From: a virus
Virus record (IMG/VR): IMGVR_UViG_3300024255_000108
Coordinates: 1 to 29,539 of that record
DNA: 29,539 nt
Direction: 5' to 3' (one strand)
This document shows positions 25,823-28,934 of this stretch, one piece after another. Under the pieces are notes generated by a model. That model ran no database searches and was not told the origin of the DNA. It saw nothing but the letters and a program-made list of their open reading frames with translations. Both the position numbers and the translations under genes were made by a program. Numbering within the stretch: position 1 is the stretch's first letter; each line of letters starts with the position of its first letter.

Positions 25823-27415
25823 ATGACTGCAACCGCCAGTTATAATAATGCCACCAAAGTACTTACAGTTGCTGCAGATGGACTGCCAGCACCTGTAAGT
25901 TATGGCACATTTCCAAATTCAAATAACCCAAATACGGTTACTGAGCAAGATTTTGATCATAATTTTGAATATCGTGGTGGGACATTTGGAATTAGTCGTA
26001 CATTTGACAGTAACCAATGGTCACAAACAGGATTTATTAGATCCATTATTATAAGTCCGAATGATAATTCATTGTTTGGTGCAACCAATCAAATTCGTGA
26101 AGGTGATCATCTATTATTTGTTTTTGATGATGGGATTAAAAGGAAGTTTCTTTATAAAGGGACAACTTTTACTTCAGTTGCAGATGAATGCTGGTTAGCA
26201 GCAGACGATCGTATCGATTTAATCATGTCAGATCAAGAATCAGGTTCTGGCACATACGAATACTACGATCAAAGAAATGGCAGGACATCTACCCCCTTAG
26301 GCACTATTGGAATTAGTGCAAATGGTGTAGTAATTTTCAATCCCAGTGCAGGGAATGGAGGATCTCCACCTGTTGGATATAGTTGGAATGCTGCTGGACA
26401 TACGCCTTTCAATAATTTTGGTGAAGATGAATGCGGTGGACATCCAGAGCAAACAGGACAATATCATTACCATGATAGTCATTTCTTGGATTGTTGGAAA
26501 GATAATTCCGTAATGGCATCATACAATGATTATTATGGATCAACTCAATTTAATGGTAATAATATTCGCCACCCAGATGGACATTCAAAAATAGTTGGAT
26601 ATGCATTTGATGGATTTCCAATTTATGGTCCATATGGATATACTTCATCATGGGACAATTTGAGTGGAGTATCAATCCAGAGTAGCTCGTATTCCGTTAG
26701 AGATATTGAAGTATCAGGTAGACCTGATTATGGGACTACTAGTGATAATCCCCCAGCGGGATCTCTTGTTCAGGACTATGAATATATTGAAGGGACAGGA
26801 ACTTTAGATATCCATAATGGTAAATTTTGTATAACTCCAGAGTTTCAAAATGGCACATATGCGTATTTCATATCGGTTGATCCTACAGATATTGATCATC
26901 CTGAGTTTCCATACATTATAGGTATTACTTCTCGTGAAGTTATAGATACACCATTAAATAACGGAGCAAATCCAGTTGCTCCTCCTGTGGATCCAGGTGA
27001 TGGTGGTCCTGCACCAGTAGCACCTACTCTACAGTTTACATTGCAACCAGCAAATGCTACCGCTAATGCAAATGAGAGTGCTACGTTTACGGTAAATGCA
27101 CAGATCCTTCCTGAAAATGGATCCATTGGGTATCAATGGTATAGATCTACTGATGGTGGATTCGCTTTCGCTGCAGTGACAGGTGCAACTTCAGCATCAT
27201 ACTCAGTCACTGCTTTGTCATACATGACTGGATACAAGTATCGTTGTCGTATTAGAGGACCACTTCCTCAAGATAATGCATCAAATACTCCTTTAGATTC
27301 AAATTCTGCTACGTTAACAGTAACTGGATCTGGTGGAGGAGGAGATGTTGCAAATCGTTTCGATAGCACATCATCTACATTTGATTCTACGAGTCAAACT
27401 TTTGATGGCACCTAA
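25823..27415 (+). CDS. YHYH domain protein with C-terminal Ig-like domain, 530 aa
   Basis: Residues about 30-370 form a YHYH domain. The naming motif Tyr-His-Tyr-His is at 214-217, preceded by Gly-His-Pro-Glu-Gln, and Gly-Tyr-Ala-Phe-Asp-Gly-Phe-Pro-Ile-Tyr-Gly-Pro-Tyr-Gly is at 259-272. Asp-Tyr-Glu-Tyr, Asn-Gly-Lys-Phe-Cys and Gly-Thr-Tyr-Ala-Tyr-Phe follow. After a Pro/Gly-rich linker (about 385-405) comes an Ig-like domain (about 407-508) with Tyr-Gln-Trp-Tyr-Arg and Gly-Tyr-Lys-Tyr-Arg-Cys. The C-terminus is a repeated Phe-Asp-Ser-Thr-Ser motif. No signal peptide or membrane segment is seen. The gene begins 14 bases after the giant gene, with only a purine-rich AAAAAG before its ATG. The clustered His and acidic residues suggest a metal or ligand pocket, which is speculative. 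A virion adhesin or fibre part is inferred from context. Confidence 0.88.
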   Translation: MTATASYNNATKVLTVAADGLPAPVSYGTFPNSNNPNTVTEQDFDHNFEYRGGTFGISRTFDSNQWSQTGFIRSIIISPNDNSLFGATNQIREGDHLLFVFDDGIKRKFLYKGTTFTSVADECWLAADDRIDLIMSDQESGSGTYEYYDQRNGRTSTPLGTIGISANGVVIFNPSAGNGGSPPVGYSWNAAGHTPFNNFGEDECGGHPEQTGQYHYHDSHFLDCWKDNSVMASYNDYYGSTQFNGNNIRHPDGHSKIVGYAFDGFPIYGPYGYTSSWDNLSGVSIQSSSYSVRDIEVSGRPDYGTTSDNPPAGSLVQDYEYIEGTGTLDIHNGKFCITPEFQNGTYAYFISVDPTDIDHPEFPYIIGITSREVIDTPLNNGANPVAPPVDPGDGGPAPVAPTLQFTLQPANATANANESATFTVNAQILPENGSIGYQWYRSTDGGFAFAAVTGATSASYSVTALSYMTGYKYRCRIRGPLPQDNASNTPLDSNSATLTVTGSGGGGDVANRFDSTSSTFDSTSQTFDGT

Positions 27416-27449: not shown

Positions 27450-28934
27450 ATGGCCAAGCAAAACCTCAGTATTGGTAGTTCAGCTAACGACGGGTTGGGT
27501 GATAGTCTCCGCGATGGCGCTATCAAACTCAATAATGTCATTGATGAAATTTACAATAATCTTGGTAATGAAACAAACCTACAACTTAGTATAGGTAGTC
27601 CTCTCGATGGGCAAGTATTGAAATGGAATGGCACTCAGTTTACTGAGTCTCATTTTGATGCACTTAGTGTAGATCTAAACGTCAAGACGTTTAAGATTGT
27701 TTCCGAAAACAACGGAGATGTTAATATCATGCCCGATGGCACGGGTGATATTAAATTTTGGAAAGGTGGAGCAGGCAGTGCCTTAGCATATGTTGATGGT
27801 GCAGATGGATACTTTAAGTGGTCTGCTCCATATACTGCTTTATCTGACCTCCCCGATGTAGCAACACATCATGGTATGTTTGCACATGTGCATGATGAAA
27901 GTCATGGTTACTTTGCTCATGGTAGTTGGATTCAACTGATAGATGTTGGATCATCTATTGGTGAGTTGGCAGACGTTGATCTGACTGTTGGCGGCGGTCC
28001 ATCTGAAGGTCAAGTGCTCAAGTGGAATTCTACAAATAGTGCATTTGAGCCAGCAAATGATCTCAACGAAGGTTCAGGTGGTGGTGGCACTACACAAAAC
28101 CTATTTGAAAGTTTCAATGCAGATAGTGGATCTACAACTGCAAGTGCTGCAACAGATACCTTAACTATTGCAGGTGGCACTAATATTACAACATCAATTA
28201 CTGGTGATGTTGTAACAATCAATATGAGTGGATCTTTAGGAGATCCTGATCAGAATATTTTTGCTACCATTGGGTCTGATAGTGGAAGCAGATCTGCTAG
28301 CACCACATCAACTACAGTTAACATTGTTGGTGGTACTGGAATCAGTACTGCTATTAATGGAGAAAATCTTACAGTAACTAATGACTCACCCAATGTGGTG
28401 CAAGAGGTTTATAGGACAATTAATGGAGATACTGGCACTACAACAGCGGCATTATCAACTTCAACTTTAGCAATAAATGGTGGGACAGGAATCAGCACAG
28501 CAGCAACTTCAAATACACTTACAATTACCAATAATGGCATTGTAATTGCAAACCCTGCAGATAATGACACTGTAGTTTTTAACGGTCAAAGTGAAGCTTG
28601 GGAAGCAAGTGCATCTGCATCGATTGGAATTACAGTAAGCTCATTCGGATCTTCAGCATATACTTTTGAAGGTGGTGGTCTTAATGATGCAGGAAATAAT
28701 CCCACAATCTATGTTTATAGGGGATTCACTTATAAATTCAATAACACAACTGGATCTGGTCACCCATTTGCTCTGAGACAAACTAATGGTGGAGCTTCTG
28801 TAACTGCTGGAGTTAGTGGATCTATAACTGGAGTCCAATATTGGACAGTGCCCCAAACTCTCACTGCTGGCACAACATATGTTTATCAATGCACAATCCA
28901 TGCCAGCATGGTTGGTAACTTAGTGGTGGTTTGA
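27450..28934 (+). CDS. Tail-fibre-like protein with C-terminal cupredoxin-like domain, 494 aa
   Basis: The N-terminus (Ser-Ile-Gly-Ser-Ser-Ala-Asn-Asp-Gly-Leu-Gly-Asp-Ser-Leu-Arg) matches the attachment segment of many marine T4-like tail-fibre and structural proteins. A His-rich stretch follows at residues 140-157 (six His). Three repeats of about 48 residues (roughly 214-365) share Asp-Ser/Thr-Gly-Ser-x-x-Ala-Ser, Gly-Gly-Thr-x-Ile and Leu-Thr-Ile-Thr-Asn, typical of fibre shafts. The last 100 residues read as a cupredoxin-like fold, with putative type 1 copper ligands His438, Cys481, His484 and Met487 in Gly-His-Pro-Phe and Cys-Thr-Ile-His-Ala-Ser-Met. Copper binding is inferred from these residues; the domain may serve only as a stable tip. 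The gene lies 34 bases after the YHYH gene. Confidence 0.88.
   Translation: MAKQNLSIGSSANDGLGDSLRDGAIKLNNVIDEIYNNLGNETNLQLSIGSPLDGQVLKWNGTQFTESHFDALSVDLNVKTFKIVSENNGDVNIMPDGTGDIKFWKGGAGSALAYVDGADGYFKWSAPYTALSDLPDVATHHGMFAHVHDESHGYFAHGSWIQLIDVGSSIGELADVDLTVGGGPSEGQVLKWNSTNSAFEPANDLNEGSGGGGTTQNLFESFNADSGSTTASAATDTLTIAGGTNITTSITGDVVTINMSGSLGDPDQNIFATIGSDSGSRSASTTSTTVNIVGGTGISTAINGENLTVTNDSPNVVQEVYRTINGDTGTTTAALSTSTLAINGGTGISTAATSNTLTITNNGIVIANPADNDTVVFNGQSEAWEASASASIGITVSSFGSSAYTFEGGGLNDAGNNPTIYVYRGFTYKFNNTTGSGHPFALRQTNGGASVTAGVSGSITGVQYWTVPQTLTAGTTYVYQCTIHASMVGNLVVV
28091..28550 (+). repeat. Three fibre-shaft repeats
   Basis: Units start near 28091, 28246 and 28396. Each has an aromatic-x-x-(Ile/Phe)-(Asn/Gly)-(Ala/Ser/Gly)-Asp start, a Ser/Thr/Ala-rich middle and Gly-Gly-Thr-(Asn/Gly)-Ile-(Ser/Thr)-Thr, and ends in alternating Thr and hydrophobic residues. 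They probably trimerise into a beta-structured shaft; that is inferred from fibre families. Confidence 0.75.

Follow-up and report, generated by a model that had tools for sequence, protein, structure and literature searches.

The 29.5-kb virus record IMGVR_UViG_3300024255_000108, analysed here over its full length of 29,539 nucleotides (the window), encodes a 494-residue protein which ends in a cupredoxin domain with a complete set of type-1 copper ligands. The protein is, by sequence, a Kyanoviridae gp9/gp10-like baseplate protein, and a baseplate fibre protein with this domain is present in most of the marine T4-like cyanophages sequenced. The comparison suggests that these phages, which are very common in the ocean, carry copper in their particles. 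The reading favoured here, with a probability of roughly 55%, is that the cupredoxin domain closes a gp9/gp10-like fibre and that its mononuclear type-1-like site, most likely a copper site, folds and rigidifies a conserved contact domain and does not act as an electron carrier. The coordinates of the features are collected in Table 1.

Table 1. Features of the baseplate fibre gene, in window coordinates.
Feature	Position (nt)	Strand	Basis
gp9/gp10-like baseplate fibre ('baseplate wedge tail fiber connector'), 494 aa	27450..28934	+	PF07880, phrog_677, PDB T4 gp10/gp9 N-termini
N-terminal T4 gp9/10 domain, residues 3-59; predicted baseplate anchor, helix 19-38	27456..27626	+	PF07880; secondary structure of the model
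Middle domain, residues ~60-210; part common to other cyanophage tail fibres	27627..28079	+	phrog_9729 tail fiber protein, residues 119-213
Shaft, three related repeats GDTGTTTA..TLTI.GGTGISTA..NTLTI within residues ~211-385	28080..28604	+	translation; paired strands, low model confidence
C-terminal cupredoxin domain, residues ~390-494	28617..28931	+	profile searches, AF2, structure comparison
His438 (CAC), putative Cu ligand, followed by invariant Pro439	28761-28763	+	229/230 distinct domains
Cys481 (TGC), putative Cu thiolate ligand	28890-28892	+	229/230 distinct domains
His484 (CAT), putative Cu ligand	28899-28901	+	229/230 distinct domains
Met487 (ATG), putative axial Cu ligand	28908-28910	+	228/230 distinct domains

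The open reading frame begins with ATG and ends with TGA, and its whole product belongs to PHROG 677 ('baseplate wedge tail fiber protein connector', phrog_677; E 3.8e-141). The N-terminus scores above the cut-off for the T4 gp9/10-like family PF07880 (E 1.6e-7; 32 bits against 25), and a PDB search matched T4 gp10 and gp9 at their N-termini. What is shared with the two T4 proteins is confined to the N-terminal ~60 residues, and for the cupredoxin domain no match to either was obtained. PHROG 677, which comprises the Kyanoviridae gp9 proteins, is annotated by its T4 gp9-like N-terminus alone, and the cupredoxin C-terminus is unnamed in the records examined. The T4-like baseplate genes of the window are arranged in the order gp25, gp6, a reading frame of 6848 residues, a YHYH protein, the gene under study and the beginning of a baseplate-like gene. 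Kyanoviridae, P-TIM40 and S-WAM1 among them, are the isolates closest to the window, and P-TIM40 shares this local gene order. For the 6848-residue frame, a single one at 5262-25808, P-TIM40, Syn9 and others encode counterparts with a structural-protein annotation, and a PAAR-like protein close to gp25 (1112-1645; phrog_281, E 2e-20) is the probable tail-spike tip. The gene immediately upstream (25823-27415) contains a YHYH domain (PF14240, E 1.1e-35) together with weak Ig-like matches. As YHYH has been predicted to be a Zn-dependent tail hydrolase (PMC7824862), two neighbouring genes of the baseplate region may encode metalloproteins. A His-rich stretch in the middle domain of the fibre protein (THHGMFAHVHDESHGYFAHGSW, 27864-27929), with similar stretches in other cyanophage fibres, is a possible further metal site.

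Recognition of the cupredoxin domain required profile and fold evidence, since the window copy lies below the Pfam threshold: scanned alone as a single sequence, it reached 17.8 bits for PF00127 against a cut-off of 21.2, and phmmer of the single sequence against the PDB returned weak matches only. A profile of 29 relatives retrieved amicyanin from the PDB (E 4e-5), and one of 46 relatives did so at E 5.6e-7, followed by plastocyanin, nitrite reductase (CuNIR) and rusticyanin. In the profile alignment to amicyanin the Cys, His and Met are in register without gaps and the first His falls off register, beside a gap, while a weak alignment to nitrite reductase places this His in register. The structure prediction proposed as a check by the initial annotation returned a cupredoxin fold of high confidence for the domain alone (AlphaFold2 mean pLDDT 95.3, pTM 0.87); in the full-length model (pTM 0.34) the domain core retains a pLDDT of 90-94, most of the remainder being weaker. 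The best structural match by VIA is the N-terminal cupredoxin domain of the Hyphomicrobium (H. denitrificans) nitrite reductase 2dv6 (Z 10.1, 2.4 A, 92 residues, 27% identity), which belongs to a respiratory enzyme and not to a virion protein, with rusticyanin at Z 8.5-9.4. Rusticyanin, amicyanin, plastocyanin and nitrite reductase are likewise the PDB matches of Foldseek at E <0.001, and the predicted fold is the Greek-key beta sandwich of the superfamily. On the family profile and the confident predicted structure, residues ~390-494 are thus a cupredoxin domain. The positions of the putative ligands in the domain model (offset 387) fit cupredoxin topology: a strand begins two residues after His438, Cys481 is the final residue of the penultimate strand, and the last strand follows just after Met487. 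The first strand starts at residue ~391, that is at nucleotide 28620, so the span of 28620-28934 first given for the domain is correct to within a few residues; the four residue numbers first given are also correct. The window contains no other copy of the domain. The BFVD matches of the fold include cyanophage fibre, baseplate and S8-peptidase proteins; some 'beta-sandwich proteins' of giant viruses (pithovirus/marseillevirus; A0A481Z6J5, A0A481YWX9 and others) also resemble it.

The ligand set, which had been described as complete, was followed through 230 distinct domains encoded on viral and genome contigs, and all four residues occur together in 228 of them. The relatives were gathered by short search peptides, of which those from single proteins never span the first His. 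Search bias is ruled out as the cause of the conservation, as every domain holding a search peptide outside the Cys-His-Met loop has all four residues (137/137), and so do all 81 distinct proteins obtained by a search with the N-terminal 200 residues. This latter search found the domain on 101 of 104 complete frames, the other three being fibre proteins that share the middle domain only. Among 200,000 shuffles of the 104-residue segment the pattern H-x35-60-C-x2-H-x2-M arose once. An alignment of 46 sequences, 33-74% identical to the window copy, contains eight invariant columns (G, H, P, G, Y, C, H and M), and the four putative ligands are all among these (p about 1.5e-5 for eight columns placed at random among 104). 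In sequence the residues follow the type-1 order of His, Cys, His and axial Met, the last three within one C-terminal loop. Cys481 is the sole cysteine of the window protein, and exactly one is found in 114 of 121 distinct gp9-type relatives, which makes an intrachain disulphide an unlikely role for it; another reading would have Cys481 form an interchain disulphide. In the RN05-S copy, located in a tail fibre repeat protein (L358:985-3297), the His, Cys and His are replaced by Phe, Ala and Val and the domain is retained, and the second domain of locus L298 is devoid of all four residues. The joint loss in RN05-S is expected if the residues serve one site, and the persistence of domains without ligands renders the retention of the site elsewhere informative. 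As far as sequences can tell, the ligand set is real and under selection.

Compared with known cupredoxins, the phage domain is most reminiscent of amicyanin (TIGR02657; Paracoccus, PDB 1aac family) in the spacing C-x2-H-x2-M, in the Y-x-C and M-x-G context and in fold. However, amicyanin is a free, exported electron carrier, whereas the phage domain ends a virion protein without an export signal, and the first His is part of an HN motif in amicyanin and of HPF in the phage domain. With 17.2 bits against a TIGR02657 cut-off of 110.2, the domain falls outside the amicyanin family. Asn or Ser usually follows the first His in cupredoxins, where the phage domain has Pro, and His-Pro-Phe resembles the first type-1 ligand of multicopper oxidases. 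Plastocyanin and phage PetE (PF00127) share fold and ligand order with the domain. The initial annotation had called the ligands plastocyanin-like in order and context; the order stands, but the context does not, as phage PetE has HN and C-x2-H-x4-M where the fibre domain has HPF and C-x2-H-x2-M. Phage PetE is also a separate gene elsewhere in the genome with a signal-peptide-like N-terminus, and in the same genomes it reaches 67-73 bits for PF00127, compared to 13-20 bits for the structural-protein domains. With a score below the PF00127 cut-off, an amicyanin-type loop and no export signal, the window domain is not assigned to the plastocyanins. Capture of a host plastocyanin is ruled out by the separate PetE gene, its different loop and its signal peptide. 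The gene annotated as PetE in S-SCSM2R (170926-171432; L082:3788-4294) carries the tail-type domain beside tail-type genes and matches PHROG 677, while the true PetE of this phage is found at 79-321, elsewhere in the genome. Viral nirK was also considered as a source of confusion; the nirK paper concerns a real nirK AMG and is unrelated.

In the favoured reading each chain would hold one metal ion, most likely copper, by means of His438, Cys481, His484 and Met487. The main task of the metal would be to fold and rigidify the C-terminal domain. Through this domain the phage would make a conserved contact at adsorption or assembly, either to the host envelope or to a neighbouring baseplate protein. 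We infer that the metal is copper rather than another, that virions have the site occupied and that the domain has a contact role; by analogy with T4, the domain would be positioned at the distal tip of the fibre and the protein would be an oligomer. The N-terminus (MAKQNLSIG) is that of the gp9/10 domain and, unlike that of phage PetE, shows no signal peptide, so the metal would enter in the cytoplasm or after lysis. Free copper is scarce in the cytoplasm, where the protein is presumably made, and metal loading constitutes the main physical puzzle. It is possible, though rather unlikely, that Zn or a thiophilic ion occupies the site in place of copper or that its filling is opportunistic, the conserved residues being a structural metal site for which copper is not physiological. 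Such an occupant would agree with cytoplasmic synthesis without a signal peptide, in contrast to PetE, and with the Pro next to the first His, a feature that sets the domain apart from small cupredoxins; in vitro, Zn or Hg can also occupy cupredoxin sites. Nevertheless, Met, Cys, His and His in cupredoxin topology are the classic copper set, and a Met as invariant as the other ligands would be unusual in a Zn site.

The distribution of selection along the protein bears on what the domain does. Conservation is 0.80 in the domain core, 0.79 in the anchor and 0.64 in the shaft (0.82, 0.825 and 0.74, respectively, in the set found by the N-terminus), and dN/dS is 0.14 in the domain versus 0.23 in the shaft, indicating purifying selection on the domain. 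A core as conserved as the anchor and a dN/dS lower than that of the shaft speak for a contact domain stabilised by copper rather than for a redox carrier. The conserved tip is unlike typical variable receptor-binding tips and looks like a conserved contact module with a metal-dependent fold. An evolution study of S-TIM4 reported mutations in baseplate and tail-fibre genes, gp9 not being named as such in its main text (PMC6224464). At E 0.01 the domain was found in 326 phage records (252 Synechococcus, 50 'Cyanophage', 21 Prochlorococcus and three marine single-cell viruses), at least 320 of which are cyanophage records, and raising E to 10 added two further organisms only, with one weak match each. 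Among phage records with a known host, none from other hosts clearly carries the domain. The N-terminal part of the protein also matches phages of Enterobacter, Acinetobacter, Pelagibacter and Microcystis, none of which is among the records with the domain. The tie to plastocyanin-using hosts drawn by the initial annotation is a correlation only: in known-host records the domain is confined to phages of picocyanobacteria, but nothing connects it to photosynthetic electron transfer. In most cases (201 frames) the domain forms the C-terminus of a gp9-type protein, as had been proposed for this baseplate fibre-like protein; other carriers are subtilase-like proteins (S-CAM4), the P-SSM2 spike (twice) and the fibre of the podovirus P-GSP1.

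The restriction to Synechococcus and Prochlorococcus phages among those of known host, and the grafting of the domain onto other fibre proteins including the P-GSP1 tail fibre, would also suit a receptor-binding tip in which the cupredoxin fold is an adhesin for the picocyanobacterial surface and the metal is incidental. This we regard as distinctly unlikely, as the domain core, far from hypervariable, ranks with the best conserved regions of the protein, the domain is common to phages of different Synechococcus and Prochlorococcus strains, and in some relatives it is internal (P-SSM2) or near the N-terminus (P-GSP1). More speculative still, and improbable, is the idea that the virions are copper proteins with several type-1 sites per baseplate, which take up seawater or host copper after lysis and make the tip competent for binding, the copper state switching adsorption or baseplate triggering; if true, infectivity would be tied to ocean copper chemistry. 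Electron transfer by the domain is unlikely, and a redox role, in which the copper site exchanges electrons with the host or the environment, for instance as a trigger of the baseplate change or in disturbing the host envelope, has very little to recommend it. The type-1 ligand set of an electron-transfer fold is complete, but scans of the protein and of neighbouring genes showed no partner and no redox enzyme domain, there is no export signal, and PetE is retained as a separate gene in several of these phages. A metal-free relic, that is a cupredoxin-derived sandwich kept for structure only with the residues conserved for packing, would account for the ligand-less domains of RN05-S and L298 but is hardly credible given the near-perfect co-conservation of four residues down to ~30% identity and the joint disappearance of three of the four from a single lineage, both unexpected for packing residues.

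Little is understood about the host-facing baseplate parts of Kyanoviridae, which are among the most abundant phages of the ocean. A conserved, near-universal baseplate domain with a full type-1 ligand set offers a concrete and testable handle on these. It would also provide a named domain for hundreds of proteins so far called just 'connector' or 'hypothetical', and correct at least one gene called PetE, that of S-SCSM2R, which is not the plastocyanin of that phage. A search of open-access papers gave nothing pertinent on phage tails with a cupredoxin or copper domain.

In several cyanophages the next gene encodes a further, more distant cupredoxin-like domain (H..S ... C-x2-H-x2-M), with Gln for Met in one group (downstream gene in loci L348, L349, L085, L351 and L359; also L124-L126, L128, L135 and L159), so that two different copper-type sites may be present on some cyanophage baseplates. 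A motif search of the downstream gene in the nearest relatives found no such domain. A gp9 close to that of P-TIM40 is also present in an assembly of the Flavobacteriia isolate Nonlabens xiamenensis (NZ_RMVE01000006.1, 188235 bp); as 188 kb fits a whole cyanophage genome, this contig may be contamination, and the other matches in metagenome-assembled genomes (L089-L094) may be misbinned phage contigs.
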